A stretch of DNA of 64,000 nt from Chrysogorgia sp. JL179-B06. Lineage: Eukaryota > Cnidaria > Anthozoa > Scleralcyonacea > Chrysogorgiidae. This document shows positions 18,251 through 48,726 of the stretch, one piece after another. Location: positions 2,323,921 to 2,387,920 of the forward strand of contig JAYKKM010000156.1 of NCBI GenBank assembly GCA_035772405.1, read 5' to 3'. The stretch's first letter is position 1, and the number at the start of each line of letters is the position of its first letter. Position numbers and translations under genes: made by a program. The notes under the pieces are model-generated. The model was not told the DNA's origin. It did not search any database and was given only the letters and a program-made list of their open reading frames with translations.

Positions 18251-18253
18251 CAC

Positions 18254-18696: not shown

Positions 18697-20490
18697 GATC
18701 AAAGTAAGCTGTTTCGATTGATTGATGGACTTTTCAAGGTTAAAGCAGCGCCACCACTGCCATCTCATGAGTCTCCTGTATCACTAGCCAACAATTTTAT
18801 AAACTTCTTCACCATCAAGATTCAAAACTTGAAAACCAACCTGCGCTCATCAAGTTTAGCAAATAGGGAACTTTCTGTCATCCTTGACAGAACTCTGTGC
18901 CAGACATCATTCTCGGAGTTCTCACAAGTGTCTGAAGAATACATATGTGAGCTAGTGATGAAGTCCAAACCAAAGTCTTGCAAACTAGATCCTATTCCGA
19001 CTAACATCCTGAAGCAATCTATTGACGTCTTGGCACCATCACTGACTGCTATCATTAATAGTTCATTGTCCTTGGGTGTTTTCCCTACATCACTTAAGAA
19101 AGCGCTAATTCATCCGTTGATCAAAAAACATACCCTCAATCGTGAGGAGTATCCAAGCTATCGTCCCATCTCAAACGTTGCTTTTCTTTCGAAAACGCTG
19201 GAACGAGTTGTTGCTACTCAAGCTCTGAATTATCTTACTACTAATGGATTGCTGGCAAAATTCCAGTCGGCATATAGGCACTTCCACAGTACTGAGACGG
19301 CACTATTACGAGTTTGCAACGATATGTTGATTGCGATAGATGGACGTCAAGAGGTTGTTTTAGTTCTTCTCGACCTGTCATCTGCGTTTGATACTATCGA
19401 CCACAGTGCTCTTCTATCTCGGCTACAATGTCGTTATGGAATCACTGGTACAGTGTTAGAATGGTTTAGATCCTACCTGACAGGCAGGTCCCAACAAGTC
19501 ATCATCAAGGACGGTGTCTCCCAGGAGAAACCTCTTGAATTTGGTGTACCTCAGGGTTCTGTGCTTGGGCCCCTCCTGTTTTCCTTATTCTTCGCCCCTC
19601 TCGAGGACGTAATCCTGGCGCATGGTCTGAGTGCGATGATGTATGCTGATGATACTCAGGTGCATATATCGATTGATTCAATCGAAGATCGCCCTGTAGT
19701 GCTGTCCAAGCTTGAACTGTGTATTCAAGACATCCTAATATGGTGCACAACCAACGACCTAGCATGCAATCCAGACAAGACCGAAATTGTTCATTTGACT
19801 TCGCGCTTCTCGGCACACTCTCCTATCCCAGGGATCAATGTGAATGGATTTAACATCACACCAACACCTACAGCGTGCAACCTTGGAGCAATATTCGATA
19901 ACCATTTACAGATGACACAGCATGTAAACAACCTATGCAAATCAGCGTTCTTCTCCATCAGGAACATAGGCAGAATTAGGAAATACCTTGATAGGGAGAA
20001 TACTGAACGACTGGTCCATGCATTTATAACTTCTAAGGTAGACTCCTGCAACAGCTTGTTGATTGGACTCCCTGACACGGAAATTGCCAAACTTCAGCGC
20101 GTGCAAAACACCGCGGCAAGACTTGTCACAAGAACAAAAAAGTTTGACCACATTATGCCCATACTCAGACAGCTCCATTGGCTCCCAGTTCGATTGAGGA
20201 TAACATTCAAGATACTTGTAACTGTTTATAAAGCTCTTCATAACCAGGCTCCTTCCTACATAACTGAACTTATCACTCCCTACAGACCGTCGCGTTCTCT
20301 TCGTTCAGCCAATAAGAATCTTCTTGTCGTCCCTAAGTGTAATACACAGTTTTACGGTGAACGATCTTTCGCAGTTGCTGCACCACGTCTATGGAACGAG
20401 CTTCCCCTTCTAATAAAAAATGCGGAATCTTTAAACTCATTTAAATCCTATCTTAAGACCCACTTATTCCATAATTTCTTTGATTTGTAA
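18697..20490 (+). pseudogene. LINE reverse transcriptase
   Basis: An intact 590-codon frame carries the RT domain: DPIPTNILKQS, YRPISNVAFLSKTLERVV (fingers), LLDLSSAFDTIDHSALLSRL (motif A, catalytic Asp), GVPQGSVLGPLLFSLF (motif B) and MYADDTQVHI (motif C, YADD at about 19639). The thumb and C-terminal region follow with VHAFITSKVDSCNSLL and AAPRLWNELPLL. No RNase H or zinc knuckle is seen at the C-terminus, as expected for L2. The RT itself looks undamaged; the element is disabled by the two upstream shifts. Confidence 0.88.
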
Positions 20491-22322: not shown

Positions 22323-22602
22323 GTATTAAAGGTATCAGTCTAATACCTTTTTTTCCAGATTGAAATGAATTGCCTCATTCTTATAGAACAGAGACGGAAT
22401 GGAAGAAAACAACATCTTTGTTATTGATTGTGTCATTTCAATTATCTCGTAGCTAACCACTAAAGAGTTTAGTATTCCGCAGTACCGTACCGTCCTCGCT
22501 GACGCGCGCAACGTCCTTAGCGACTGTTTGAAAGGCTTATATATATATATATATAATATACATAGCAAAGTGAAAAGGTGGTAAACTGCCAAGAATTTAG
22601 TG

Positions 22603-22646
22603 ACGAGATACTGACGTTTCGAGCGGAGCCCTTCATCAGAGTAAGA
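22603..22646 (-). ncRNA. hammerhead-ribozyme-like motif of PLE
   Basis: On the minus strand CTGATGA is followed by a short GGGC/GCTC stem II with one extra A before it, then GAAAC immediately joined to GTC, leaving a two-pair stem III. ACT before CTGATGA pairs with AGT after the cleavage triplet (stem I). Minimal stem-III hammerheads are known from PLEs. Activity cannot be judged from sequence; the extra A and short stem I may reduce it. Confidence 0.5.
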
Positions 22647-22955
22647 CAAGATGAAATAAAATAAATAGGGCTTATATAATGCCAAAAGGGTGTCACAGGT
22701 AGAAAGTAGCCAATCAAATACACGGGAAATAAACTAACTAATAATTAATGAGATGGGAAAAGTTAAATCATTTGCTATTTTTAAAGTCGATCAATACGCA
22801 GACTGAGGGGGTGGGACAAATGACAGGTCCAATATTCAAGGGGATTAGGCGATAATAATAGAAACAAAGACTTGAAAAGGAATGAAAGTGCATAAGCTGA
22901 TGATAAAAAGTTCCAAGCAACTAAAATAATAAAAAACTAAAAAACTTTTAGGAAA

Positions 22956-23260
22956 TTAAATAAAAGAAAAATGTTCGTTAAGACCAAGAGGATGTGTGGT
23001 GCCAAGTTTAAAAATGAGACGCTTCTCTTGCCGCTTGCAGTTATCATTGCCACCGGAAATGGGAAGGATGGCACAGACTTTCATGTCTGAAACCAAATGG
23101 TTGGAGCTGTTGAAATGGCGGGCTACAGGTTTGTCACCATCATTGATCCTCACGGAACGAAGATGTTCAGCAAACCTGTCTGAAAGACGTCGCCCAGTTT
23201 CACCGATGTAGATTTTAGGGCATTTATCGCATGAAATGCAATAAATTATGTTGGTGGACG
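22956..23260 (-). pseudogene. PLE GIY-YIG endonuclease domain
   Basis: The minus-strand translation includes IIYCISCDKCPKIYIGET, the CxxC-containing GIY-YIG core, then GRRLSDRFAEHLRSVRIN with the catalytic Arg/His helix. ARHFNSSNHLVSDMKVC and RLIFKLGTTHPLGLNEHFSF complete the C-terminus and the stop. This domain nicks DNA for PLE integration. The domain itself is open from about 23260 to the stop at 22956. Confidence 0.8.
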
Positions 23261-24263: not shown

Positions 24264-24684
24264 TTAAGGGCACTATGTACTAAGGAGTCACGAATGTTTT
24301 TATTACGGCGAAAAGATACCAAAGGGTTATCGGTGAAAATGGCTGACGTCTCAGGATCATTTTGTAAAATGTGAAAATTCCGATTGATAATATTTTTAAC
24401 TTTAAAATTGAAAGGATGAAATGTTAGAACTAAAGGAATTTTATTGTTTGAAACTCGTTCCAAAGATGGTTCAAGGGCGTCTAAACGGGGGACGAGAAAA
24501 GCTTTCTGAACGGCGAGGTCTAAAAGGTTGGTAGGGTAACCACGTTGGACAAAAAAGGATCTCATTTCCATTGATTTGGCTTGAAAATCTTGGCCGTCGC
24601 TACATAAGCGGCGAAGACGCAAGAATTGAGAGTAAGGGATGGATTGTTTAGTGTGGAAAGATGGATTGCTTAGTGTGTGAAAGT
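24264..24684 (-). pseudogene. PLE RT C-terminal/linker region
   Basis: Read from about 24680 downwards: SNPSFHTKQSIPYSQFLRLR (RT thumb), EMRSFFVQRGYPTNLL, RVSNNKIPLVLTFHPFN and NFHILQNDPETSAIF, then FRRNKNIRDSLVHSALN, which stops at the hAT insertion. These blocks and their order are those of PLEs between RT and the GIY-YIG domain. The ATG-initiated frame from 24790 includes about 35 residues antisense to the inverted endonuclease copy and is not a natural N-terminus. Confidence 0.78.
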
Positions 24685-25205
24685 CTGTGCCATCCTTCCC
24701 ATTTCCGGTGGCAACGATAACCGCAAGCGGCAAGAGAAGCGTCTCATTTTTAAACTTGGCACCACACATCCTCTTGGTCTTAACGAACATTTTTCTTTTA
24801 TTTAATTTCCTAAAAGTTTTTTAGTTTTTTATTATTTTAGTTGCTTGGAACTTTTTATCATCAGCTTATGCACTTTCATTCCTTTTCAAGTCTTTGTTTC
24901 TATTATTATCGCCTAATCCCCTTGAATATTGGACCTGTCATTTGTCCCACCCCCTCGGTCTGCGTATTGATCGACTTTAAAAATAGCAAATGATTTAACT
25001 TTTCCCATCTCATTAATTATTAGTTAGTTTATTTCCCGTGTATTTGATTGGCTACTTTCTACCTGTGACACCCTTTTGGCATTATATAAGCCCTATTTAT
25101 TTTATTTCATCTCGTCTTACTCTGATGAAGGGCTCCGCTCGAAACGTCAGTATCTCGTCACTAAATTCTTGGCAGTTTACCACCTTTTCACTTTGCTATA
25201 TATTC
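24684..25205 (+). mobile_element. inverted PLE 3' end (endonuclease C-terminus and 3' UTR)
   Basis: This is the inverted copy of 22545-23085. On the plus strand it encodes the endonuclease C-terminal residues (RQEKRLIFKLGTTHPLGLNE), a stop, then a 3' UTR with a second hammerhead-like motif at about 25113-25155. The arms are highly similar, with only isolated substitutions in the parts I compared. Confidence 0.78.
25113..25155 (+). ncRNA. second hammerhead-like motif of PLE
   Basis: Same core as the minus-strand copy at 22603-22646: CTGATGA, stem II GGGC/GCTC, GAAAC-GTC, with ACT/AGT pairing for stem I. The two copies face each other across the PLE, as expected for PLE terminal repeats. Confidence 0.5.
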
Positions 25206-26128: not shown

Positions 26129-26533
26129 TATTTCACAAGGAAAAGCTCCCAACACTGGAGTTCAATACTTCAATAATATGGAAACAAAGAGCAATTATTT
26201 ATAACAATTTTGAAGCTTTGATATGATGACTAGAACTTATCTGACGAAAGGAAAACATTCTTGAATCCATATTTAGCAAAATAAAGGCACAAGTCCCCCT
26301 TCAAAGGCAAGAACGACGCGAATATTTGTATATCTAACAACGCAATCCGGTCGGTCGATCGGTTAGTCGTGGTCAGTTGCCCACTGTTTATTCGCGTGAA
26401 GTTTTTTCATAAATATAGTAATTATATTATACAAGCAGTACAAGCAGTACAAATAATATAACTTAACAAAAACAAACACTCACATTCGTTGCTAACAGGG
26501 CGATGGCAAAGATGGCGACTTGTAAGTTGTAAC

Positions 26534-26782
26534 CAGTGAGCTCTATATATATATATATCTGGAGGGCTATCTGCCAGTCATTGGCCAGGCAAAAAGTGAA
26601 GCCCAAGATGGCCGACTTTGCACGTCAGTTTCAGTCCCCTACGCGGTTTATATATACGAAATTGACGTAAAAACCGCGCAGGGGACTGAAACTGACGTGC
26701 AAAGTCGGCCATCTTGGGCTTCACTTTTTGCTCGGGCAGATAGCCCTCCAGATATATATATATATATATATAGAGCTCACTG
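26534..26782. mobile_element. hAT foldback MITE, copy 1 (8-bp TSD GTTGTAAC)
   Basis: Ends CAGTGAGCTC and GAGCTCACTG, followed inward by TA tracts and about 95-bp inverted arms (AGTGAAGCCCAAGATGGCCG and its complement). Both flanks are GTTGTAAC (26526-26533 and 26783-26790). It is nearly identical to 42293-42539. The ORF across it comes from the palindrome. Confidence 0.9.
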
Positions 26783-26930
26783 GTTGTAACTTGTCCGATT
26801 ATTTTTCTGCGCATGTGCGAGTTTTCGTCATTCTGGACGTCACTCAGCAAGCGTCAAAGCAGCAGGAAAAAATGATGCGCGCGGGGACGAGAAACTATTG
26901 ATTTTTTTTACTTGGCCTTAAAGACATACA

Positions 26931-27869
<939 letters not shown>

Positions 27870-28254: not shown

Positions 28255-28680
28255 TTGACGAGGTCGACCTTTGAAGTGATGACACACCTTTGAAATGATG
28301 ATCGACCTTTGAAATGATGACCGACCTTTGAAGTGATGACCGACCTTTGAAATGATGACCGACCTTTGAAATGATGACCGACCTTTGAAATGATGACCGA
28401 CCTTTGAAGTGATGACCGACCTTTGAAATGATGACCGACCTTTGAAATGATGATCGACCTTTGAAGTGATGACCGACCTTTGAAATGATGACCGACCTTT
28501 GAAATGATGACCGACCTTTGAAATGATGACCGACCTTTGAAATGATGATCGACCTTTGAAATGATGATCGACCTTTGAAATGATGACCGACCTTTGAAAT
28601 GATGACCGACTTTTGAAATGATGACGACCTTTGAAATGATGACCGACCTTTGAAATGATGATCGACCTTTGAAATGATCA
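28255..28680. repeat. 19-bp minisatellite (GACCGACCTTTGAAATGAT)
   Basis: About 22 copies of a 19-bp unit vary at a few positions (GACC/GATC, AAATG/AAGTG). Because 19 is not a multiple of three, the ORFs cycle through three frames and give a false 19-residue peptide repeat. The same unit occurs inverted at 33975-34096. Confidence 0.92.
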
Positions 28681-33974: not shown

Positions 33975-34096
33975 CTACGATCATCGTTTCAAAGGTCGAT
34001 CATCATTTCAAAGGTCGATCATCATAATCAAAGGTCGGTCATCACTTCAAAGGTCGGTCATCATTTCAAAGGTCGGTCATCATTTCAAAGGTCGAT
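33975..34096. repeat. 19-bp minisatellite, inverted copy
   Basis: About six units of ATCATTTCAAAGGTCGGTC, the inverse of the unit at 28255-28680. The array is cut by the foldback element starting at 34097, and one further half-unit (GGTCGATCATCAAAGG) reappears at 42166. Confidence 0.88.
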
Positions 34097-34885
34097 CACG
34101 GGCTTTAGGACAGGCTCGATGCGAGTATTAAAAAGTTGTTTCAACATGCGATTGTTAACATAATCCATTTATTTGTCGCGCCTTAATGTTCGATAAACTT
34201 GCTTAACTATAATACAAGAGTACGATACCTTGAAATCCTCCACAATTTGACTTGCAAATTTTCGTGTAAAGTATTTGAGTTTGAACCTCCATGTTTACTT
34301 GACCCAATCCTTCCAACTGCCGCGCGGCTTAACTAGACCCACTCCTTCGAACATTTAATGACGTAACACGCCCTGAATGATCCTAAAATTAGGAGGGTAG
34401 GATCAAAGTGGGCGTGGTACCGACATAAACCAATCAGCTATCTCGATTACATACCATGTGATCTGTTTAAATCGTCAAGAGCGAGATGAACCGTCAGAAC
34501 GTCTGCGACTGGGCTCGGGGACAGGTAGTTTCCATATATGGAAGTTGGGGACACGTTTGTACCATATATGGTAGTGTCATTTCATCTCGCTCTTGACGAT
34601 GAAAAATCCAAGAGATCTTAGGATTATCCAGGGCGTGTTACGTCATAATATTAAGCCGCGCGGCAGTTGGAAGGATTGGGTCAAGTAAACATGGCGGTTC
34701 AAACTCAAATACTTTACACGAAGATTTGCAAGTCAAATTGTGGAGGATTTCAAGGTATCGTACTCTAAACTCTTGTATTATGGTTAAGCAAGTTTATTGA
34801 ACATTAAGGCGCGACAAATAAATGGATTATGTTAACAATCGCATGTTGAAACAACTTTTTAATACTCGCATCGAGCCTGTCCTAA

Positions 34886-35065
34886 TGCGCCGATCAATTT
34901 ATATTGTTAACATCCCCCCCCCGGGCATACCCCGGGCATTTGACACCCTTCCCTATCCCGGAGTGGGAAATTTGACCTTTTAAACTGCTGGGGGTAGGGC
35001 ATTTGACACCGAGCCGCGTGACGTGGGGCATTTGACACCAGACCGCGGGAGGTACGGGACTAAAT
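34886..35065. repeat. left TIR and subterminal repeats of the 7.27-kb transposon
   Basis: TIR about 34886-34945. GGGCATTTGACACC or a close variant recurs at about 34935, 34996 and 35026, with TTTGACC at about 34971. Corresponding motifs on the complementary strand lie at 41995-42095. Such repeats are commonly transposase-binding sites. Confidence 0.75.
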
Positions 35066-35105
35066 TTTCTCGATCGCACGTGTGCTAAATTTTATTAATC
35101 GCGCC

Positions 35106-35205
35106 ATGGAGTACACATTAAAAGATTTTAAAGGCCAAGGCAACAGCTACGTGGCAGAATGGCTTCTGACAAATGGGATGCAGAAGCTGATTGACAGTTT
35201 TGAGC
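35106..35205 (+). pseudogene. transposon gene, exon 1: SAM-domain N-half
   Basis: ATG at 35106 opens MEYTLKDFKGQGNSYVAEWL, then LTNGMQKLIDSFE and a consensus donor (C/GTAAGT) at about 35205. The VAEWLLxNGMQKLIDSFE block is the first half of a sterile alpha motif (SAM). It continues at 36637 after an intron of about 1.4 kb. Choice of ATG: first in frame, well placed before the SAM helix. SAM domains mediate protein oligomerisation. Confidence 0.65.
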
Positions 35206-35272
35206 GTAAGTACCATATATGCTTCTTTGAGTGGCTGTTTATTTCCAAAGTCTCTGTTTTAGAAGTATTTTA

Positions 35273-35511
35273 GGGGCTGTTTATATGAGAGGCGGGCTAG
35301 CCCGGCAAAGCGAGATGATTTCTGGCTCGCGTTCAATATATGGGAAAAATTCATCCCGCAATACCAAGATGATTTCAGGTGTTGTATTAAATAGACGGCG
35401 TCGGCATCTCCAACCCGGCTGCGAGTGTTTATATACGCCTCTCTCAAGCGAGATCTCGCTAACCGGGCTGGTCCGGTGACCGGGCTCGCTCACCTCTCAT
35501 ATGAACACCCC
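35273..35511. mobile_element. MITE in transposon intron
   Basis: Inverted ends GGGGCTGTTTATATGAGAGG and CCTCTCATATGAACACCCC, with GGCTAGCCCGG and CCGGGCTGG internally. About 239 bp, no ORF of its own. Confidence 0.7.
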
Positions 35512-35988
35512 ATAGACTGTAGAACATATTTTATAAAAGAGAAACGAGAAGGAATTTATACTATACGTGAACTATCAAGTCAGTCTAAAACATATTTTAC
35601 ATTTCAAAACAAATATTTTTAGAGCGATTTTAATACTGGCCTGCAATATCCGGCATTTGACAGTTTTGTGTTATCAAATTAACTGTGGTTCCTCTCTGTT
35701 TATCTGTGCATCACGGCTCTGTTTCGCTTGTATTTTCCTTCTGTCGCCAGTGGCTTTAATATTTTAAAATAAAACGTTTCGCTCTCCAAATCTTTTCGAC
35801 GAGACAAACAACTTTGTTTGTTCGTAGGGTGGCCAATAAAAATACGGAAGCCATAAAATGCAGACAGACGGAGGCCAGACAAATTTCTGCGGAAAACGGG
35901 AAAAGTTTAATAACCGGCCCTGAACTTTTATAGTTTCCTTTTAACCTAGCGATTGCGAGTCGCCCGCCTTTTTCTGGGGTGTCTACCT

Positions 35989-36213
35989 TATTGTTACTTT
36001 CGAAAATTGTTATTTTCGCGGGACTAATTAATTTTCGCGATTTTCAAAAATAAGCGAAATTAAAGTCCTGCGAAATCAGTATTTTGACAATTTTCGCGAA
36101 ATTTAGTTCCTTTTAATGGATATTTTTGGCCAAATCGCGAAATTCAAGTCCCGCGAAATATGCCCGTTCCATTTTCGCGAAATTAAGTTCCCGCGAAAAT
36201 AAGTAACAATAAG
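35989..36213. mobile_element. CGCGAAA-rich MITE in transposon intron
   Basis: Inverted ends CTTATTGTTACTT and AAGTAACAATAAG enclose many TTTCGCG/CGCGAAA words in both orientations. About 225 bp, non-coding. Confidence 0.65.
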
Positions 36214-36636
36214 ATTAGCGAAGTTGCGTAATAATGAAACAGCGAAATAGAAAATTGTAGTTGGTTTTCTTTTTTTATAACAGGACTTATTTTTTGTTAC
36301 ACAGTAGCCTGTTTACACGAGATAAAGAGATGTATAATACAAAATATATAAAAACGTTCTGTTATAAAAAGAATAAAAACAGCATATTTTTTCACTTATG
36401 TTTCGCCATTTCGTTAATTAGTAACACCCGATCAGCCTATGTTCGCAAGCTTCAATTATGTTTGTATTCAGTGGTATTTCAACTGCCAGTGCCATTTGAG
36501 TCAACCCGCCACGTTGGTATATTTTCACATGAGTATTTAAAAAATACACTGTAGTTAATATATTTTGAATGTGACCATGTGAATAATAATTTCCTCCAAT
36601 GAAATATTCATTTTATATTGTTTATTACATGATTGT

Positions 36637-38129
36637 AGAGAATGATGTTGACGGAGACGCCTTCGTGATGTTAAATGGCGATAGTAATTAAAGAACTAAT
36701 CCCGGCAGTGGGGCCCCGACTAAAGTTCCAGAGTGCATTTGCCCAGTTGTCACCGCAATTAAAGGAGCACGAGGCCAACGACCCTATCAGTATCACTTCC
36801 AAAGATGATGTAGACGTAGCAACCAAAACAAGTGCAACAAATTTGCTGAAAAGTACGAGTGACAAAATTTATAAGAGAGCACAGCAAGATTTTTGGTCTC
36901 CACCGAAAAGATGCACAGTTAACCAATTGGCAGAAGGCTGTTAACGATAGTGCTTATGAGGCAGCAAAAGCGAATCCTGATTTGCTATATGATCGAGGAA
37001 CGCTGAAATTTGAGGCAGAGAAAAAAGCCCGTGAAAGCTATATTTTCCAGAAGAAAGGTGGATCACGCTCCAAAAGCAAAGATATGACCGGAAGCCAACC
37101 GCCGATCAAGAGGGCTAAAATAAGTCAAGAAGAGAGAGGTGATAGAATACTTGAGATTTCCCAAGAACTGGAGTTGCTGAGGAAACAGATAATGACGAAG
37201 CAGCAGATTATTGCCAAATCAAGTACCATGAAAGACTATCAACAGTGTGACCAGGCACAGACGGAGACAAGAGAATTGGTGCGAGAGAAGGCCAAACTTG
37301 AAAAGCTCTTGAAAGAGCTACAGAAGAAGGAGGCAAAGAGAAAGAAGTACCAGAGGTCCAAGGGACAGAAACTAGGGGAAACTAGCACAGTTTCTAAGTT
37401 ACCTCCACTCAGAGATGCACATTCCGTGGACATAAGAACATTATTTGCAACGAAGCCAATACCCGGAAACGCCACATCTACAACTTCCCAATCTGCAGGT
37501 AAACAAGCCAATTTTGTAACTGCCGAAACAACTGGTGAGGTCATTGACGTTGACGAGACAGACGAAACAGCCACCTTAACTGCTGAATCAGCCACTGTCA
37601 TCGAGAAAACAGCCACCGCCACCTTAACTGCTGAATTGGCCACTGTCATCGAGGAAACAGCCACAGCCACCTTAACTGCTGAATCAGCCACTGTCATCGA
37701 GGAAACAGCCACAGCCACCTTAACTGCTGAATCAGCCACTGTCATCGAGGAAACAGCCACAGCCACCTTAACTGCTGAATCAGCCACTGTCATCGAGGAA
37801 ACAGCCACAGCCACTGTTATCGAGAAAACAGCCACAGCCACCTTAACTGCTGAATCAGCCACTATCATCGAGGAAACAGCCACAGTCACTGTTATCGAGA
37901 AAACAGCCACAGCCACCTTAACTGCTGAATTAGCCACTGTCATCGAGGAAACAGCCACAGCCACCTTAACTGCTGAATCAGCCACTGTCATCGAAGAAAC
38001 AGCCACAGTCACCACCACATCTGTTGCTGAACCTTTAACTATCGACTTAACTGCAAAAACATCCACTACCTCGACTACAATAGCCACCGACACTACAAAT
38101 TATTATGACAGGGAGCATTTTTTAGAGTA
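36637..38129 (+). pseudogene. transposon gene: SAM C-half, coiled coil, TLTAES repeats
   Basis: After the acceptor, ENDVDGDAFVML and, after a frame change near 36690, IKELIPAVGPRLKF complete the SAM domain. Another change near 36905 leads to LTNWQKAVNDSAYEAAKANP, then a strongly charged coiled-coil region (RILEISQELELLRKQI to ELQKKEAKRKKYQR). A T/A-rich region follows with a 16-residue repeat (TLTAESATVIEETATA, 48 bp, about nine complete or partial copies, 37560-38000). The main frame ends at 38128 in a T6 run. The protein is probably DNA-associated and oligomeric, inferred from SAM plus coiled coil. Confidence 0.6.
37560..38000 (+). repeat. in-frame 48-bp coding minisatellite
   Basis: Units of 48 bp (16 codons), some shortened by whole codons, keep the reading frame throughout. 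Serine/leucine and valine/isoleucine substitutions vary between copies. The antisense 284-codon ORF across this region is a shadow of the repeat. Confidence 0.88.
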
Positions 38130-38880
38130 AAGTTCTCCCATGTGCAAGACGATCAAGGCATGGGAGAAGATTCGGATCAATTACTTGATGAATTGGTTCA
38201 AACACTTCGAAGGGAAGAACGGAAAAATTTGACAAACACAGCAGCACAGAGAATTTCGGAAGGAGTGAGGGAGAGTCTGTTAGACGGCTTGAATCTAGCT
38301 GAGTATGTCTCTGCGAAGGAACGGAACTGCAATCGTTATCATCGGGACTGCAAAATAGGTTGTCACGGAATGGTAAAAGCTGCTAAAATAGTGTTGCAGT
38401 AAATTATGGAGGGAAGCATTCCCAGGTATACAGTATGACTGTGAGAAGGCTCAACGTAAACTTCTTCAAATGCCAGTTACCACCCTGAAGATCAACAGCG
38501 GTTGTGTTGTAGTTGAAAAAAGACCAGACAGTCTTTATGATGAAATAAAAGGTCAACACAGTAAAATCGGAGTGCAGGCCAACATACAATCATTAATTTT
38601 CCGAGATAGTTTCAAGTCTCTCTTAAATGCAGCACCAAATTGTGGAGAGAGCGAAAGAATGAAACATTTGATGGCATCATCGCATAATATGTCCGTACGC
38701 CAGGGGGCTAAGTTTGGAATCGCGCGAATGAAGCAAAGAGCTGTGAAGGTAATTTCAGCGACTACCAAAATTAACAAAATCAAGAGCAAGCACCAGTACT
38801 TCGCGAAAATGGAACAGAAGATTCTTCTTCAGTCAGTAGGGCTGGCCCCAGAATTGTACTTGTCCAGTGACCAGTTCTGA
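38130..38880 (+). pseudogene. transposon gene: conserved central block
   Basis: Frame 1 (to 38402): FSHVQDDQGMGEDS, QRISEGVRESLLDGLNLAEY, ERNCNRYHRDCKIGCHGMVK and AAKIVLQ, then a stop. After a shift at about 38400 the frame carries WREAFPGIQYDCEKAQRKLL, TTLKINSGCVVVEKRPDS, HLMASSHNMSVRQGAKFGIA and ISATTKINKIKSKHQYFAKM, ending PELYLSSDQF. The Cys/His content (C-x5-H-x2-C-x3-C-H) in CNRYHRDCKIGCH could be a metal-binding site. I cannot assign a named domain. Confidence 0.5.
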
Positions 38881-39266
38881 TTCAGAGGATTCTGATGACG
38901 ACGAGTTTTATGTGAAAACCTACAAGATCCATCCACCAGATCAGGGGGAGCAGCACAAACAACCAGACCAACAGAAGCAGGACCATCAGCCAGACCAACA
39001 GAAGCAGGACCACCAGCCAGATCAACAGGAGCAGGACCAACAGAAGCAGGACCAACAGCCAGACCAACAGAAGCAGGACCAACAGCCAGGACCAACAGAA
39101 GCAGGACCAACAGCCAGACCAACAGGAGCAGGACCAACAGCCAGACCAACAGAAGCAGGACCAACAGCCAGACCAACAGAAGCAGGACCAACAGCCAGAC
39201 CAACAGAAGCAGGACCAACAGCCAGACCCGCAAAATCAGCTAGAGAAGGGCCAATCCATAATCGAT
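38881..39266 (+). pseudogene. transposon gene: acidic segment and QQKQDQQPD repeats
   Basis: Frame shifted from the preceding block: SDSEDSDDDEFYVKTYKIHP, then a 27-bp minisatellite (QQKQDQQPD-type nonapeptides, 38960-39235), whose frame changes once at about 39090. The repeat unit is again a multiple of three. It leads into LEKGQSIIDVKFIVVLDVLR. Confidence 0.5.
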
Positions 39267-40377
39267 GTGAAATTTATTGTTGTCCTCGATGTCCTTCGAG
39301 AGGTGCAATGGAACTGGTTTTCATTTGTTACCTTATTGGAGCCAAAATTCGAGAGCCATGGCTACACTCAGGAGGAATTCGATCAGTTTCTAGTGGATTT
39401 TGCAAATCAGCTTCCAAATCTTGGTTTGAGTGATCTGGAATTTAATCTCACCGAACAATCACGTGCAGCGTACTTGTCGGAAATTATACAGAAAGAAATT
39501 AGGATAGAAGAAATTGTAGCAGAAACAGCAAGTGATGACGATGACAATGGTGGTGCCTTGTCCGATGTAATCAACGAAGAGGAGCTTGACAAAATTCACA
39601 GAAATATAAAGAGAATTAAGTATAAAGCAAAAAGGTTGGCCAAAGCGGAGATAGAGTCAGAGGGTCTACATGGAAGACGGAAACCGTTAGAAAGATCAAA
39701 CACAGTTCTGTCAAGACATCCCGATATCGGTAAGGTTATGGAAGACATGGTGAAAGAAGCAGATGTAGGAGCAGATAAATGGCGCCGCACGGGGGTGTAT
39801 ACATTTACCGGAGAGACCAAAAGAGAGAAGAAGATGACATTTAGGAAGCTGCAGGAGAAACTTAGTGCACACTATCGTGAGAAGTTTAGCTATGGGACCG
39901 TTATCCAGCTATGCGTCCACCGTAATAAGCGAAGAAAGTCCAGCAAACGCTACAAAGGAGTCGCAAACATCAGGTACCAGAGGCCAAGAAAAGGATTCAG
40001 CTTAAAGTTCAATGCTGACACCAAATGGAGCCGCTCCCTCTACAAGTGTCTAGAAAAACTACAGATTGATGGATCGCACATCCTTCTCCTAAACCGTGAC
40101 GACCAGGCAGGTTTCCGCTTAGACTCTACGTTCACCCACAAGAGTACACCCTCACTCAACGTCGATGGCCCAACCCTTACAACACACACAGATTTCCTAA
40201 ACAAACATCAAACACAGCTTCAAACAACAAGTTATAACTTTTCACAGACCACAGTTTCTAGTGAAGTTTGTGTCGGCGTTGTCAAAGCAGCAGGTGTGCA
40301 CCAGAAGAATCCATGCCAGCATGCTGCTGACCTGGCTATGCTTCATTCCATGGAAGCGTACCATCCACTATTTTTAT
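39267..40377 (+). pseudogene. transposon gene: putative transposase core, part 1
   Basis: An open 370-codon frame. Landmarks are LTEQSRAAYLSEIIQKEIRI, DVINEEELDKIHRNIKRIK, LSRHPDIGKVMEDMVKEADV, GADKWRRTGVYTFTGET and MTFRKLQEKLSAHYREKFSY. Also visible are GTVIQLCVHRNKRRKSSKRY, LLLNRDDQAGFRLDSTFTHK and KNPCQHAADLAMLHSMEAYH. The block ending RDDQAGFRLDSTFTH is a candidate for a first catalytic Asp of a DDE-like fold (inference). Similar multi-copy proteins exist, as I recall, in coral and Hydra gene sets as uncharacterised. A stop follows at 40377. Confidence 0.55.
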
Positions 40378-40940
40378 AAGGAAACGGGAGAAGCCAAGGA
40401 TATCGAGTGTATTCGTGTAGATGGTAGCATCTGACGAAGGACCAAGCCATGTAGAAGTGCAGTTTCTTTGGGCAGAGAGACACATGAAGCGTCCAACAAA
40501 GGTCACCCTGGTGACTACAAGGTCAAGTGGGATAGTTTTCTGAACCGTGTAGAACTCCAAAATGGTTGCTTGAGCAGAGGGCATTCAAATCTCTTTATTC
40601 CCTCAACTTTATGTGGTGAACCTTACGATGCCGATGGCCAATTTGATGACTCTAGACATCGTGAGAACATGGAAGCAGCTTTGCAGCAGTATATTGCACG
40701 TGTAGATGGAACTCCATGTATGGGGACAAGTATTAGTTTGCATAAAGGTGTTGGAAGCCATGACTTGCTAGAAAGAAGGAATAGGTTATTGGTGTTCCTG
40801 AAGGGAAGTGCACGGGATAGAGTTGAGCTAAAGAAGACTGACCCCTGAAGAATACAAGTACTTCACAAAGGTTTGGCAAATAAGACAGAACCACATGGAT
40901 AACACCCTTCCAATCAACTATGTGTATTTGCTGAGATGTT
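40378..40940 (+). pseudogene. transposon gene: putative transposase core, part 2
   Basis: Conserved blocks are spread over changing frames: KDIECIRVDGS, then DEGPSHVEVQFLWAERHMKR, then FLNRVELQNGCLSRGHSNLF, IPSTLCGEPYDADGQF, ARVDGTPCMGTSISLHKG and YTFTKVW-like LPINYVYLLRCCGK. Shifts occur at about 40430, 40530 and 40850. VDG...DEGPSHVEVQF is a plausible second acidic catalytic block, but the assignment is inferred from pattern only. The number of shifts shows that this copy is dead. Confidence 0.45.
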
Positions 40941-41597
40941 GTGGGAAACGAAAAATGTCCGCATCCATTATGTGCGGCACATGGTGAAAAAGGAGGCGAT
41001 GTCAATCAACCATCCGACAGCGGTATGACTCAGCAGGTGTTTTGTATATGCAGGCAGCCGGAGGCTAACTTCATGATATGTTGTGATCAATGCGGAGAAT
41101 GGTTCCACGGACACTGCATCGGCATCACAGAAGAGGAAGGTGACAAAATAGAATCTTACATTTGCCAGACCTGCGAAGGGCAGCAATACACACACGATGA
41201 TTTCACTCCTTCATGGTACCTGGGCGGACCTTCTTTCAAGTTCTTCCCATACCCAGTAATCGACAATACAAGGCCATGGGGAAGTCCGTGTACAAGCTGT
41301 GATGGATGTTGCAGTGGTCACTATGTGACACAGGTTGACAAGCTGTTAGAGCTACATAAAAGTGGAAAGGCCATAAGGTCCTTCCCTCCTAATACCATCA
41401 TTGAAGAGGCTTTCAATAAAGGAAACTACACTGTTGATGCCTTAGCAAAGAAGTGCTGCCTGACCACAGACGATGTGGAGATGTGGCTGCAGCATCTTCA
41501 GAAGAAGAAAGCCACACGAGAGAAAGCAGTCCTGAAGGCCAAAGAAACCCGCCGAAAGAAGAAAGAAACAGCTATGCTTGATTCAACCAGGCATTGA
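40941..41597 (+). pseudogene. transposon gene: PHD finger and basic C-terminus
   Basis: About residues 31-75 of this 218-codon frame form a PHD finger: CICRQPEANFMICCDQC, GEWFHGHCIGITEEEG and YICQTC, with the C4HC3 ligand pattern. Upstream CPHPLCAAHGE may be a further zinc site. Downstream come WYLGGPSFKFFPYPVIDNTR and CTSCDGCCSGHYV, then a helical region (ALAKKCCLTTDDVEMWLQHL) and a lysine/arginine-rich tail. PHD fingers read histone-tail marks, so chromatin-guided targeting is a reasonable inference. The frame is intact to the stop at 41595. Confidence 0.75.
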
Positions 41598-41599
41598 TT

Positions 41600-41990
41600 C
41601 ATGTTGCATTGTTGCCATAGGGACATTGTTATTTTTAGCTGTTCAGTTTATCTTGAATAAAATGTTTCATATATAGTGGTGTTTTCTATACAAGGTGATT
41701 TAAAATGTCGAGAGTTGCAGTATGAAACAATTTACATTCATCGTTTATTAGGCCAACAAAGTACCATGGAAAACTGTTGTTTATATTAATTTAATATTTA
41801 AAGTTTATCTAATATGACACTGCACCCTATACGTTTGCTTTTAGGGAACTTTTTAATAACATTTTCTTTAATATAGCATGAAGTGTAGTATGTTAATACA
41901 CACTTTATTATATTAAAATGAGGAAATTGCTTCAAAATTCAGTGCGTTTATTTTTCACACAATTCCAAACTCAAACTTACAGCACAGAAT
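41600..41990. other. 3' UTR-like sequence of transposon gene
   Basis: AT-rich and non-coding. An AATAAA word at about 41656 after the PHD-frame stop could serve as polyadenylation signal. It ends at the G-rich subterminal region. Confidence 0.4.
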
Positions 41991-41994
41991 GACC

Positions 41995-42154
41995 CGGGGG
42001 TTGGGCATTTGGCCAACAATTTGCCTTATATGTGGGGGCATTTGAACAGTTTTTTGGCCTGGGGGTGGGGAATTTGACCACAAAATATCGAAAAGTTCAA
42101 ATGCCCGGGGGTATGCCCGGGGGGGGATGTTAACAGTACAAATTGATTGACGCA
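41995..42154. repeat. right subterminal repeats and TIR of the 7.27-kb transposon
   Basis: GGGGCATTTGAAC, GGGGAATTTGACC and related words occur before the TIR (about 42097-42154), which mirrors 34886-34945. Confidence 0.75.
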
Positions 42155-42292
42155 TAAAGCCCGTGGGTCGATCATCAAAGGTGTTGTTAAGGCATCCGAG
42201 ATTTATTATTTTTTGTAAACATTTGGGCTACCTGTATCGTGCCCAGGACCTCACGGTTTCTGTTGATAACTCAGTTCCCCACATGGTTGAAC

Positions 42293-42539
42293 CAGTGAGC
42301 TCTATATATATATATATATATCTGGAGGGCTATCTGCCAGTCATTGGCCAGGCAAAAAGTGAAGCCCAAGATGGCCGACTTTGCACGTCAGTTTCAGTCC
42401 CCTACGCGGTTTATATATAAGAAATTGACGTACAAACCGCGCAGGGGACTGAAACTGACGTGCAAAGTCGGCCATCTTGGGCTTCACTTTTTGCTCGGGC
42501 AGATAGCCCTCCAGATATATTTATATATAGAGCTCACTG
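42293..42539. mobile_element. hAT foldback MITE, copy 2 (8-bp TSD GGTTGAAC)
   Basis: Same element as 26534-26782, ends CAGTGAGCTC and GAGCTCACTG, flanked by GGTTGAAC (42285-42292 and 42540-42547). Very few differences from copy 1. It sits about 100 bp upstream of the BEL/Pao gag start. Confidence 0.9.
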
Positions 42540-42636
42540 GGTTGAACCATAAAATAGAGCGTTTCAACCACGGAAACCGTTACAGTTCAACCATAAAGAA
42601 CGATTATCTATGGATAAAGGTTAAAGGAACACTATT

Positions 42637-43127
42637 ATGGATTTCGAAGCTGATCTGAGCTTGTTGGATATCGTGAATGACGAGCAAATGAGCTTGCCAC
42701 TTCTCGATGAATTACCGCCATTATTTTCGCCACTCGTCACGGAACCGCTGACATATATTGTCGAGCCCACGGTGTTTGATGGAAATGCGAACGAGCAGAA
42801 TATAAACAGTTCATTGAACTTTGATGGAAATACGGTCATGGAAAATCAAAGTAATCGCAATGAACAAACTGGTCCAATAACCAACGACAAGGAAATGGCT
42901 TTAAAGAGTCTGAAACAAAACTGTGAGTACGCTTTACCTGATGTAACTAAGCAAATGGATGAAATTGCCCCTCTTATGTCGAGTGTAAATAATGATGAGA
43001 CGGTGAGATTTAATACAGTACAGTTGGATAAACTGTTTTTAAATATGCAGAAAGCTTACGAGTTGTATATCAAGGAACTAGAAAATGATAACGATATTGA
43101 AATGGCTCACAAATGGTATGACACTCA
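42637..43127 (+). pseudogene. BEL/Pao retrotransposon gag, N-terminal part
   Basis: ATG at 42637 opens an acidic N-terminus (MDFEADLSLLD) and a helical segment with TVQLDKLFLNMQKAYELYI. The frame is then broken by a hAT element at 43128. It resumes in the same frame at 46095-46102 after the duplicated 8-bp target, so the insertion is a clean disruption. It belongs with the gag/protease at 46103-48540. No LTR could be delimited upstream. Confidence 0.6.
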
Positions 43128-46094
43128 CAGGGCCGTAGCTAGCATGTGAAAGTTGGGGGGGGGGGGGGGGGGGGGGGGGGTGTAAGTCCCAAATTTCCGA
43201 ATCTCAAATTATTTTTCCGAATATGAGGACACGCGCCGTAAGGCGCGTCAATCTACACGCGTAAAAACGCACAGCTTGTTTTTGCCTGTCAACAGGCAAA
43301 AACAAGCCTGTTATCGACAGGCTAGAACATGCTTGAGCTGGCCAGCAAGAACATGGCTGTTGACAGGCTTGTTCTTGCCTGTTGACAGGCTTGTCCTTGC
43401 CTGTTGGAACAGGCTGTTTACGGCTTGATGAATGAACAGGCTTGAACAGCGTTGTTGAAACAGTATGTTTCATGCATGATAACAGCGTTGATTTAGCGTG
43501 ATGAAATAACATCCAAGAGCATGGTTGTTCTGACAGCGTATTTCAGGCATGATATCAATGCTGTTTTTGACTGTTGAACTCGAGATTTTCTCGTGTTTAC
43601 TACGCGTTCTTCTCGCGAGGCCCCGTGTATCGTGTGTTGCCATGCAACAGCACGACGAACAAAAAATATTGACAACACCTGAAAATATATTTGGGCTTTA
43701 TTGCAAAAGATAACAAAAACATTCACAAAATAGGCAAGCTTACAATACTTTTTTATACAAAAATACCCTGTAATATAATCAGTCTTCGCTTCCACAAACA
43801 TTAAGACCACAAGTCATTCTTCAAACGGCATATGCCACTGCTTGCCCGTCTCAAAAGTTGGTTTCGCGAATTTGAATTGTGGTCATGTTGTGAACGCGAT
43901 CCCTAGCCTTAGCCATAACAATAGAAACTATAAGATCTTGCAGTGTTAATCATCTTTGAATGTCAGATATCAGTTTCACATTCTGCAGTGCATGGCCTGG
44001 TTCATTCACGTCGATGTTTTCAGAACTTGGTCTAATGGTTCTTGAATACGGGTAATAGCCAGAGTAAAATTTCCAAACGTGCATCTAAAAATATATAAAA
44101 AATAGATAAATACAGAATGTATAATATTTACAATGCATTCAAACCACAACGACGTCGATGTAAGTTAAGCTTAAGCTTTATTTTATATCATTCTGCATGC
44201 AGAGACTTGACTAGTATATTGTTTTTTACGTGTTCTCTTTTAAGTTAATACATGTGCATCCTGTCGGAAAAGGCAAATCTCAAACTTTTTCCCATTTTTA
44301 AAATACTTCCCTTTAAGCAAGAAACTAGAAAACTTTACCACAAATAGTACTTTAGAATATCTTTTGATTGATATATAGATCAAGTTTGTGCGTTAAGCAT
44401 TGTGCAAACAATATCTAATATCCTAAAACACTTGTCGAGCAATGGTGCGAACATTTTGAACATTTTGAACATTTTAAAACGTTACACAAAACTCACAGAC
44501 TTGAACTATACATCAAATGAAAGCTTATGAAATTTCTAACAACATACGTACATGATGTATTTCAACAATCCGTAGTTCGGAAGTTATTCACCATTTTCCT
44601 TCATGAACAAACATGCCAATAGGCAATAGCCTCGTTTTCACTTTCGCGAGTGTTTTCTTAATTTCTTCCTTCAGGTTTGCGCCTTCGACTGAACCTGAAT
44701 TTCTTTAAAACAAAGTGACCATGTAATTACTTAAGTTAACTTACTGTATGTCGTTGGAAAAACTTGGAAGCCTTTTTAAAGACTGACTTCCGCCTTGGAA
44801 ACAGGAAAAGACTTTAACTGGAAATATTAATCGAGCTAAAAAGGCAAAGTGCCCAAGAAAAATAACCGCTTACAGTACCTCTTAGTCTTTGACACGTTGG
44901 CAACTTGACACAGAATATGGTTATTTTCGGATCTGCCGGTGAATTTCCACTCAGCCAAAAATGCGTTGTCGTTTATAATCTCAATTTCCATTCGCTAGTC
45001 AGCCTATATGTATATAGTGGCAGTCGAGCCCAAGACAATGTGGAAAGTTTCAGCCTCTTTTGGCGGCGGGATATCCAGTTCTGTTTCTTCGTCTTTCTTG
45101 GTATAAATGTTAGGAATTAAACCATTAAATTTCGTAAAAACAGCAGCACAAAAATATTAAAACTGTCTTGTTCAAATTTCGCTCTCGGATGGCGTGGATA
45201 TATATGTATTCAAAATAATTCCTGATTATAAACTGGTTCAAACCGGTTGAGTACTCACAACAGGCATGAACAATGCTGTCGAACAAACAACCTTGTTCAT
45301 GCCTGTTGGAACAACATAAAACTATCATGTCAAATCAACAGCCATGTTCATGCATGATACAACATGTTGTCAGAGCATGATGAAATAACATCCAAGAACA
45401 GCAATGTTACAACAACCATGAACTTGGTTGTTGTATCAAGCTTGTTTTTGCTTGTTGTAACATGCATGAACAAGCATTGTCGATTCGCCAAGCTGTAACA
45501 TGCATGTTGTAACATGCTTGAACAATGCTGTTATTTCAACAATCATGTTCTAGCATGTTAACAGGCTGTAACAAGGTTGTTGAGCCAACAACCTTGTTAC
45601 AGCCTGTGAGATTTTTACGTGTGTAGGGGAGCATCCCCCGGGAAATTTTTAATTCTAGGGTCTCGGAAATTGCATTTCCCGCATTCTGGGAGCAGTTTTA
45701 AGAGATTTCCTTGGACAGTTTACAGATGTAGGAATTTAGTTTTCAACAATAAAAAAGAGGCGAAATATAAACAATTTAATTCTATGGTATACGGTATCAT
45801 AATTCGTGGTTTTGTGAAGGCTGTTTAAAATCCGGAAATGATAAATTTTATTGCAAAGCAAAAGCCAAAAGGTGTCATCTATCTGATGTACGTATGCAGT
45901 AAATCGACAAAAATAGATTTGTTATCCTTGTGAATATTATTTTGTAAGTTCTATAAACTTAACATGAGTTTTTTACTGTTCACTGACTGAAATCTCGCTT
46001 AACCTACGTTGCCGTAGTTTTCCGAACGAGTAATTCGATTTTCCGAATATCTCAATTTCAAAAATGTTAAATACCCCCCCTCGCTACGACCCTG
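43128..46094. mobile_element. 2.97-kb non-autonomous hAT element in BEL gag, 8-bp TSD
   Basis: Ends CAGGGCCGTAGCTAG and CGCTACGACCCTG. Both flanks are GACACTCA (43120-43127 and 46095-46102). A G-tract adjoins the left end and a C-tract the right. TTTCCGAATnT motifs occur subterminally on both sides. The interior holds an inner element (43253-45626) but no transposase, so mobilisation would be in trans. Confidence 0.88.
43253..45626. mobile_element. inner element with CTACACGCGTAAAAA ends and AACAGGC palindromes
   Basis: Ends CTACACGCGTAAAAA and TTTTTACGTGTGTAG are inverted. Both ends carry several hundred bases of short quasi-palindromes built from TTGTTxxxGCCTGT and ACAGGCxxxAACAA words (43270-43560 and 45240-45607). 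The same style of end occurs at 20690 and 21140. The central part has no recognisable domain. No TSD found. Confidence 0.55.
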
Positions 46095-46102
46095 GACACT
46101 CA

Positions 46103-48050
46103 AGATAGAAATGTGTTTGAGTTTAAAAAGAAAATCGTTGAATTCCTGAATAAAGCTAAGAAGGAACTACCTATGAAATATGAAGCTTATTCTTGTAAGT
46201 CTAGAAGATCTCGTAGTTCCAGTAAATCCCGATCTTCTGTGGCCTCATCTGTATCCACAAGAGCAAAATTAATTGCAGCAAAGGCCAAATCGGCAACACT
46301 AGAAGTAAAAGCTGCATTTCTGAAGGAAAAACAAGCAATAAGGATGGCTGCTGAGGAGTTGGATTTAAAACAACAAATAGCTGAAGTTAAGATAGAGGAA
46401 CAGATCTATGAACAAGAGCTAAATGACGGTGCTAGTAATATCGAGGACAGTAATGTTAAAGATTGTTCAAATGTAATTTTAAATCCAAGTTCAATTAATG
46501 CTTGTTCACCGACCATTCAAGCTACAACATCATTGCTGGATCCAAATGCTTCTGCCTTTGTGGTTCCTAATTTGATTGAAAGAAAAGAGCCTGTATACCT
46601 AGCTACAGGCATTGCACAAAAACCCACTGTGAACACCACCAAAGTATTGGAGAATCAACATCAGAGTTCTGAAGCTGAGCCTGCTTCACTTGAAGAAGTC
46701 ACCCCATATAAAGAGTTTCTCAAGATACAACGAAATCAAACTGAACTAACAAAGATGATTGCAACTCAACAATTGAAAGGATCCCTACCTACCCACAAAC
46801 CACCTACATTTTCTGGGGACATGATGGAATATCCAGCATTTATAACAGCGTTTGAGACTTTGGTAGAATCAAAGGTTACAGATTCTACAGAACTACTCTA
46901 CTACTTGGAACAATATACTGCAGGTAAAGCCAAAGAGGTTATAAAGGGATGTTTCCAACGAAAATCTGAATCTTCGTACCAAGAAGCTAAATTGTTACTG
47001 AAGAAACATTATGGGGACTCATTCAAGATTGCCAATGCCTATGTTACCAAGTTGTCAAGTTGGATACCTATCAAGCCCAACGATGGAGCAAAGCTACAAG
47101 AATTTGCCATCATGTTAGAGCAAGCAAGAACCGCTATGATTGGTATGGAATATATGAATGATTTGAACACAGCCCATGTTTTGAGACAACTTTGGGAGAA
47201 ATTACCAAGGTACCTTCGTAGCAGGTGGTGTGAAAGAGCTAGTAGTATCAGGAATACTAAAGGGAAGTTGGCTACTTTCGAAGATTTTGTGCAGTTTGTA
47301 ATCAAGCATGCTGACCTGGCTACCGACCCTATTTATTCAGAAGAGTTGGTGAAGAAAGAAAGTCCTTATAGCCAAAGGCGAGATCAAAGAAACAGAGGTT
47401 CAAGTTTCGCTACAGAGTCTACAAAGAAAGATCAACAATCAAGCAAGTCTGATATGCCCTGCATTGTATGCCATAAGTTGCATGATCTTGATCAGTGTTT
47501 TGAGTTCAAGAAACGGTCATTGGCTGATAAGAAAAACTTTGTAAGAATGAAAGGTTTGTGTTTTGGTTGCTACAGTCCAGATCATATTGCCAAGTTCTGT
47601 AAGCAGAGAAAGACATGTCAAGTATGCAAGAAGCGTCACCCGACAACATTACATGACACTAATTGGCAACCACGATTCAAGAAATATGGGAAAGAGGAGG
47701 ACCCTGATAAAGCAAATTCAGAAACCAAGGATGTAGAGAAGCAAGTTAACGTGCGTTCAACTTTTTGCGACATCACAGAGGCTGGTGACACACCAATCAA
47801 CATGGGTATTATACCAGTTTGGTTGTACCATGAGGACAATCCTGTTGAGAAAGTTCCTGTGTATGCTCTACTGGACAATGCCAGTGGCGGAACCTTCATT
47901 AAAGAAGAATCCTTGGAGAAACTACATGTGAAGGGAAATGATACCAAGCTTCTATTAACTACCATGCAATGCATGGTACTCAAGAAGTGTCTACTAAAGC
48001 TGTTGAAGGTTTGGTGGTGGAACATTTTCAACACAATACCACCAGTGTAA
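46103..48050 (+). pseudogene. BEL/Pao gag and aspartic protease region
   Basis: The frame continues the N-terminal gag after the hAT element. Order: basic/helical region, linker, gag core of DUF1759 type (LPTHKPPTFSGDMMEYPAFI, a typical start, to ADLATDPIYSEELVKKES), zinc knuckles (CIVCHKLHDLDQCFEF, CFGCYSPDHIAKFC, CQVCKKRHPTTLH), then a protease (VYALLDNASGGTFI, catalytic Asp in LDNAS). The frame shifts near 47965. Gag packages the element RNA; the protease matures the polyprotein. Reverse transcriptase, RNase H and integrase are missing downstream. Confidence 0.8.
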
Positions 48051-48545
48051 GGTTACCCAGAACTTACACAAGGCAGCAGATTCCAGCTGACAGAGATGAA
48101 ATTCCTCGAACTGAACTGTTGAACAAATGGCCTCACTTGAAGAAGATAGCAAAGCAAATACCAGCCTACATGGAAGATGTAGAAGTAGGAATCCTGATTG
48201 GTCTGAATTGTCCAAGTGCCCTACGACCAAGAGATGTAATTCACGGAAACGAAGATGAACCATATGCAGTGAAGTCGCTGTTGGGATGGCATATAAATGG
48301 TCCAGTGAATCACAGCACCGGTGATTCAATATCATGTAATAGAGTCCATATTGTCGGAAGCAGCTCCAATAGTACTGCCAAGGGATATGTTACCATCGAG
48401 AGGAAGGTTAAAGAGGTCATTACACCCAACGTAATAAGAGAGATGTTTGAGATGGAATTTTCAGAAAAAGAGCGTGGAATGGGTCTATCCCAAGAGGACC
48501 GCAGATTTCTCGAGAAAGCTGAAGCTGTATACCCTAATAATTTTT
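47966..48545 (+). pseudogene. BEL/Pao protease C-terminal region, truncated
   Basis: Next frame after the shift: STKAVEGLVVEHFQH, then YMEDVEVGILIGLNCPSALR, EPYAVKSLLGWHINGPVNHS and GMGLSQEDRRFLEKAEA. These are the usual segments between the BEL/Pao protease and the reverse transcriptase. Similarity ends near 48530, where unrelated sequence begins, so the element is 3'-truncated or was cut by a later rearrangement. Confidence 0.72.
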
Positions 48546-48726
48546 TGAGAGTCGATTTCAGTTTATTTGTTTGAGTTTTGGTTCTATATACATGTATAGA
48601 TAGCGCTGCGTATTCTCCGTGCCTTCTGCACGTCGATTCAGTTTCCTAGGGCACTTTCTTTTTGGCTAAAACAAAACCGGTATGCCCAAATTAACTCTGG
48701 ATACGGCACTGATATTTGCCAATTGA

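Follow-up and report, generated by a model that had tools for sequence, protein, structure and literature searches.

A putative −1 frameshift signal between the SAM/coiled-coil and DDE transposase frames of a PHD-bearing DNA transposon in Chrysogorgia

The DNA analyzed here is a 64,000-nucleotide stretch (the window) of contig JAYKKM010000156.1 from the anthozoan Chrysogorgia sp. JL179-B06 (assembly GCA_035772405.1), and positions 34886-42154 of it are a multicopy cut-and-paste DNA transposon bounded by terminal inverted repeats (TIRs) and a TAA target-site duplication (TSD). An initial annotation, made from the letters alone, had concluded from the TIRs, the TSD and a reconstructable empty site that the whole unit moved as DNA, and our analysis upholds that conclusion. 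The two arms of the TIR, ~59 bp each (34885-34943 and 42097-42155), are 83% identical when aligned without gaps; an alignment with two gap columns matches them in 53 of 59 paired columns. A foldback whose arms (34102-34332 and 34651-34888) are 95% alike received the insertion, close to the end of its second arm. The partner arm retains the empty site, ...CCTGTCC-TAA-AGCCCGTG, and in the filled site this becomes ...CCTGTCC-TAA-[element]-TAA-AGCCCGTG; beyond the TAA the two match for just 8 bp, up to what looks like the end of the foldback itself.

The search for further copies with duplicated flanks that the same annotation proposed was productive. Using the 121-nt left end as query against the host genome (781 Mb in 522 contigs), we scored 40 of 97 candidate matches and fetched 17 loci, of which 11 had both ends intact (one of them, L016 with L026, after a second fetch) and the other six had a single end or a degraded end. 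Identical 3-bp flanks border eight of these 11 other two-ended copies (five TAA, three TTA), and the flanks of the remaining three are non-identical (two TAA/TTA, one TTA/ATA); the target is therefore TWA. Copy L009 is full length, at 7244 nt, and is 96.9% identical to the window element. Kolobok and piggyBac elements duplicate TTAA. Such a duplication was considered here and rejected because the inverted repeat runs on beyond the TTAA to TGCG and both the empty site and the copies give TWA; the inner GTTAAC belongs to the TIR, and it is TAA or TTA that flanks the copies. Likewise rejected was a nested model that places a TTAA element within a short palindrome, since the same outer ends are found on other copies.

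Six of the loci (L010-L013, L017 and L018) are non-autonomous elements of ~1.2 kb and form a family that shares these ends and has TWA duplications; its members have ~210 bp of left end and 535 bp of right end in common, and their middle has no match to this element. Within the transposon, the motif GGGCATTTGACAC recurs below both ends (Table 1), and these repeats may be bound by the transposase. Over the whole window they are weakly above chance: allowing up to three mismatches there are 26 matches against a shuffle mean of 15.3, with one of 100 shuffles reaching 26, and the only copies without a mismatch are the three at the left end.

Table 1. Features of the transposon and its insertion site, in window coordinates (a dot in the strand column means that no strand is assigned)
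Feature	Position	Strand	Basis or remark
Left TSD, TAA	34883..34885	.	sequence
Right TSD, TAA	42155..42157	.	sequence
Left TIR	34886..34943	+	repeat search, arm alignment; genome matches to left end
Right TIR	42097..42154	-	repeat search, arm alignment
Foldback arm carrying the insertion	34651..34888	-	partner arm 34102-34332 retains empty site
Three exact subterminal GGGCATTTGACAC motifs	34934..35038 (34934, 34997, 35026)	+	possible transposase-binding repeats
Four related subterminal motifs, 3 mismatches each	42003..42106	.	motif scan
ORF1 exon 1, with start codon and first SAM half	35106..35205	+	domain search, sequence
Predicted intron within SAM domain, GTAAGT ... TTGTAG	35206..36638	+	sequence, domain score
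ORF1 exon 2: second SAM half, helical region, coiled coil, minisatellite, F-L-E-stop end	36639..38130	+	frames, homologs
In-frame minisatellite in ORF1, 48-bp unit	37567..38013	+	tandem-repeat scan
Putative slippery heptamer T TTT TTA, in phase with ORF1 and separated from its stop by one codon	38118..38124	+	sequence, copies
Putative stimulatory hairpin, stem 38133-38143 / 38158-38168	38133..38168	+	folding
ORF2, transposase frame, beginning at -1 to ORF1; several breaks in window copy	38109..41594	+	frames, homologs
Minisatellite in ORF2, 15- and 27-bp units, disordered in homolog model	38966..39228	+	tandem-repeat scan, model
NRDDQAGFRLD, predicted first catalytic Asp, beta strand 1	40092..40124	+	homolog alignment, predicted model
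CIRVDG, predicted second catalytic Asp, follows beta strand 4	40408..40425	+	homolog alignment, predicted model
NRVELQNG, predicted catalytic Glu, helix start	40543..40566	+	homolog alignment, predicted model
CPHPLC box, PHD located after box in window clade	40956..40973	+	pattern, sequence
PHD finger, closest solved relative DIDO1	41043..41174	+	domain and structure-sequence search
Homeodomain-like helical segment and basic tail	41382..41564	+	alignment to homologs, model

The interior of the element had been described as a single gene-like series of frames, with a SAM domain split by an intron, a coiled coil, two in-frame minisatellites, a DDE-type core and a PHD finger. The domains are as described, and the single gene is not: there are two open reading frames (ORFs), ORF1 and ORF2, in different frames with an overlap of 22 nt, and the window copy has further breaks in addition. 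In ORF1, joining the two exons improves the match to SAM_1 from E=0.043 to E=1.3e-7; the coiled coil follows, and both minisatellites (37567-38013 and 38966-39228) are present, the second of them in ORF2. Exon 2 has two frame breaks in the window copy. A sequence search returned seven relatives of ORF1 and a profile search 27, those seven included, and no Myb/SANT match was found in the 7 and 10 ORF1 homologs scanned. The structure model of ORF1 is poor (pLDDT 62.8, from 7 sequences) and was used for its helices only.

ORF2 is predicted to encode an RNase H-like DDE transposase. The fold prediction, which was made on a close homolog rather than on the window protein, places the invariant D, D and E of the homolog alignment as expected of such a core, with no large insertion separating strand 5 from the Glu helix, and supports the DDE-type resemblance noted at first annotation. 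The PHD finger beyond the core is matched with E=1e-9. Similar proteins had been supposed to exist in cnidarian gene sets, and they do: three of 120 relatives listed bear an organism name, in each case the octocoral Paramuricea clavata. The homolog search matched 591 relatives, of which these 120 were listed.

At the junction between the two frames ORF1 ends ...GAG CAT TTT TTA GAG TAA, and the ORF2 frame, which is −1 relative to it, is open from 38109 across the heptamer T TTT TTA. A heptamer of the form X XXY YYZ thus stands in the zero frame, inside the overlap, with the −1 frame open. In the window sequence an 11-pair hairpin begins 8 nt past the heptamer, inside the expected 5-9 nt. None of 200 shuffles is as stable as the 50-nt hairpin context (z −4.2). 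The excess falls as the context is widened, to z −2.64 over 61 nt (two of 200 shuffles as stable) and to a modest z −1.76 over 101 nt (12 of 200). A perfect stem of at least 10 bp at that spacing accompanies 4 of 782 heptamers in the window, as against 12 of 15,689 in shuffles. A search of 34000-42700 at the Rfam gathering level gave no match.

The same junction is found in all four copies that have coding sequence, namely the window copy, L009, L015 and L016; among the fetched loci, internal coding sequence is confined to these last three. From the junction L009 is open for 851 residues, and then for 234 residues in another frame, without the breaks in the window's ORF2; L015 is open for 668 residues from the junction, and L016 is open for 740 residues further on. 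Since the junction is shared and the breaks of the window's ORF2 are missing from L009, the junction is not a private break of the window copy. None of the four copies has both ORFs whole, and in the window the alignment of ORF2 to its homologs passes through frames 3, 1, 3, 1, 2 and 3 in turn. The term autonomous-type used at first annotation therefore suits the family and not the window copy, whose frames are broken. The differences between the window copy and L016 are often small gaps, so some of the frame breaks may be assembly errors. Substitutions between these two copies number 0-9 per 170 bases (mostly 1-4, about 1% overall, the last three bins aligning badly). We had considered the identity of their junctions as a sign of constraint and dropped it, because substitutions are equally few over most of the element; at about 1% divergence the identity is silent on constraint acting on the hairpin.

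More distant relatives were compared as proteins, and the junction DNA was deduced for one pair of them; the hairpin is described from the window sequence. Nine of the 27 ORF1 homologs, representing about seven lineages, end in F-L-x-stop, and F-L occurs nowhere else in their last 60 residues. Identities among the nine are 41-54%, except within a trio that is 86-97% alike. In all nine, the residue before the F has a codon able to end in T, for which the chance is about 0.06. Of the other 18, P0131 is fused in frame and the rest terminate at other points, many being fragments; about seven extend past the coiled coil yet end differently, and not all of these are explained. Three pairs of ORF1 and ORF2 relatives lie on contigs of equal size, P0122/P0021 (592973), P0132/P0008 (15029) and P0138/P0096 (4802), and their ORF2 members are 62-86% identical to the window ORF2. 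For this pairing 34 of the 120 listed ORF2 relatives were compared by computation and the other 86 by eye, with no further match. When the registers were tried over 7 codons, the end of the P0138 ORF1 and the start of the P0096 ORF2 could be encoded by one common DNA only in the −1 register, and the DNA so deduced contains T TTT TTG. As controls, 2 of 20,000 8-mers were equally compatible, as was 1 of 1837 8-mers that start with M, a pool that includes P0096 itself. Finally, in P0131, a cluster of 317 member sequences, ORF1 continues via S-F-F-G into an unbroken, though truncated, ORF2 part, as it would with one extra T at the run. Pattern searches for relatives in IMG/VR and prokaryote genomes gave pattern matches only, none of them confirmed by tblastn.

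P0131 could also be read as showing that the run of six T is an error of sequencing or replication, or that transcriptional slippage bypasses it, and that the functional gene reads as if it had seven T; the window copy and L016 do differ by numerous small gaps in addition to substitutions, and some of the indels may be assembly errors. We consider this quite improbable, as there are six T in all four copies of this assembly, the P0138/P0096 pair requires six, and the nine ORF1 homologs, mostly 41-54% identical, stop exactly there. Nor do we give much credence to the possibility that the two ORFs yield separate proteins without slippage, ORF2 being translated from its own ATG (38160) by reinitiation, by leaky scanning or from a separate transcript. 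This ATG lies 29 nt past the ORF1 stop, of 34 ORF2 relatives inspected at the N-terminus several begin near the same place, and DNA transposons with two genes are familiar, PIF/Harbinger among them. However, separate translation would not need the −1 frame to be open upstream of the ATG through the heptamer, as it is in all four copies, nor the open −1 frame over T TTT TTG in a relative, nor the in-frame fusion of P0131. Least probable is that TTTTTTAG is the 3' splice site of an intron that normally joins ORF1 to ORF2. It does resemble a polypyrimidine tract with AG, and the element has a predicted intron in its SAM domain, but the ORF1 relatives stay coding up to the F-L end, P0131 continues without a gap, and no upstream donor was established, no systematic donor search having been made.

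Taken together, these data make it likely, in our judgment, that programmed −1 ribosomal frameshifting fuses ORF1 to ORF2 in the making of the transposase, which is encoded by an autonomous cut-and-paste element of which the window copy is a degraded member. The fused product supposed in the single-gene reading may thus well exist, with the SAM/coiled-coil part in a first frame that has a conserved stop and the transposase in a second frame at −1. Most ribosomes translating ORF1, a putative oligomerizing protein, would terminate at the codon after U UUU UUA GAG, leaving free ORF1 as the major product, and a minority would slip back one base at the heptamer, aided by the hairpin 8 nt downstream, and continue into ORF2. 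The product of slippage would join the SAM domain and coiled coil to the DDE, PHD and homeodomain-like domains. The helix-turn-helix or homeodomain-like parts of this fusion would probably bind the TIRs and the subterminal repeats, and the fusion would excise the element and insert it at TWA, leaving the 3-bp duplication. Because the SAM domain and coiled coil may allow free ORF1 and the fusion to co-assemble, free ORF1 could set the dose, in the manner of IS3 OrfA. The PHD finger may direct integration to chromatin marked with H3K4me3, or tie activity to it.

Control of transposase dose by frameshifting is a classic theme in bacterial insertion sequences, and the same holds for Gag-Pol in retroelements. 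As in IS3 and IS1, a first ORF (with a coiled coil in IS3) would here be fused to a catalytic ORF by −1 frameshifting; unlike them, this element is eukaryotic, its first ORF is spliced, and it has SAM, PHD and homeodomain-like parts. The junction shares U UUU UUA, a short spacer and a stem-loop with the gag-pol signal of HIV-1, with the difference that it belongs to a DNA transposon and its downstream frame is a transposase. Among the open-access papers listed on frameshifting, and judged by titles and the opening lines of abstracts, none reports it in a eukaryotic cut-and-paste transposon. If the mechanism holds in an animal DNA transposon, it would be an independent solution to dose control and a natural frameshifting reporter for the phylum.

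The PHD finger of the window protein is closest to that of DIDO1 (E=9e-15), the structure of which, by its title, was solved with H3K4me3, and it has F, M and W at what we take to be the aromatic and methionine positions of the ING2-type methyl-lysine cage. The position of the PHD varies among the 120 listed relatives, which we classed by pattern: it lies between the CPHPLC box and a GGP motif, as in the window, in seven, at the C-terminus in 35, and without a recognized GGP in six; 31 have a longer tail without the PHD pattern, 17 end within 60 residues after the box, and 24 lack the box by pattern. In a midpoint-rooted FastTree of the core, the window protein groups with the internal-PHD and stop-after-box proteins (15 tips, support 1.0), apart from the proteins with a C-terminal PHD. 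This grouping, together with the closer kinship of the C-terminal PHD of relative P0041 to Alfin-like and PHF20 fingers, suggests that the internal PHD was gained or relocated separately from that of the sister clade. In 12 of the 17 stop-after-box relatives (P0009-P0107) the tail runs on G-K or G-M, where the window clade has its PHD. Such a tail resembles readthrough of a splice donor, and capture of the PHD at an intron following the CPHPLC box is therefore possible.

Classification of the family is less straightforward. The Pfam transposase models, PIF/Harbinger included, had no match at E up to 1 in the eight full proteins scanned, and in a scan of 42 proteins no Harbinger-type transposase domain was present among the 25 families displayed out of 45. 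The 50 rows listed by a VIA-align structure comparison included no PIF/Harbinger, hAT or piggyBac structure, a result that excludes none of them. With 591 relatives matched and no Pfam transposase match in the eight scanned, the family is large and largely unannotated. Zator elements combine a 3-bp duplication with a transposase-36 (PF07592) domain; here the 3-bp duplication is present, and PF07592 had no match in those eight proteins. Tc1/mariner elements such as Mos1 differ in their TA target and in being small and single-ORF. PIF/Harbinger is alike in outline, with its 3-bp TWA duplication, TIRs, two ORFs and DDE transposase, and the family might be a very divergent lineage of it in which a Myb-like ORF was swapped for the SAM/coiled-coil ORF. 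TAA or TTA duplications in eight of 11 other two-ended copies, the two ORFs, and a homolog model without a large insertion before the Glu helix would all suit such an origin, but the lack of a Pfam match in the proteins scanned, a SAM_1-matching ORF1 in place of a Myb/SANT-like one, the PHD finger and the overlap of frames at a heptamer set the element apart, and we regard this origin as possible but doubtful. It concerns classification only and is compatible with frameshifting.

The target duplications of RAG-like transposons are 5 bp. A PHD finger in a cut-and-paste transposase had been thought a notable find; the finger itself is real, and there are precedents for the combination. One study describes Rehavkus transposases with a PHD finger and a minisatellite in the element, as here, in arthropod and annelid hosts and with 9-bp rather than 3-bp duplications (PMC6446971), and another places a PHD in RAG2L, the second, Kelch-PHD protein of RAG-like cut-and-paste transposons (PMC4411706). 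Among the open-access papers listed on this domain order or on new superfamilies, none is recognizable, by its title or abstract opening, as describing the present family. On balance we lean towards regarding these elements as an animal cut-and-paste family, without a Pfam transposase match, in which retrovirus-style −1 frameshifting (U UUU UUA and a hairpin) would fuse an assembly protein with SAM and coiled coil to a DDE transposase whose histone-reading PHD was gained or moved separately from that of the sister clade. A PHD near an H3K4me3 reader, differently placed in two sister clades, makes the choice of targets by histone mark testable for DNA transposons.

The surroundings of the transposon are rich in other repeats. 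A 19-bp minisatellite lies beside the foldback (34102-34332 / 34651-34888) and forms a 22-copy array on the other strand at 28265-28678. A near-palindromic element is present in two copies, 94.7% alike (26524-26792 and 42283-42550), the second beginning ~130 bp to the right of the transposon, and 235 copies of the tetranucleotide AAAG occupy 26931-27869. By eye, the frames at 16854-20490 resemble a non-LTR (long terminal repeat) retrotransposon with endonuclease-like and reverse-transcriptase-like parts, and a long frame at 46071-48574 resembles a gag/protease-type retroelement with a zinc knuckle. Inverted repeats of 526 bp (22558-23083 and 24678-25203), 99% identical and ~1.6 kb apart, possibly mark another young element.

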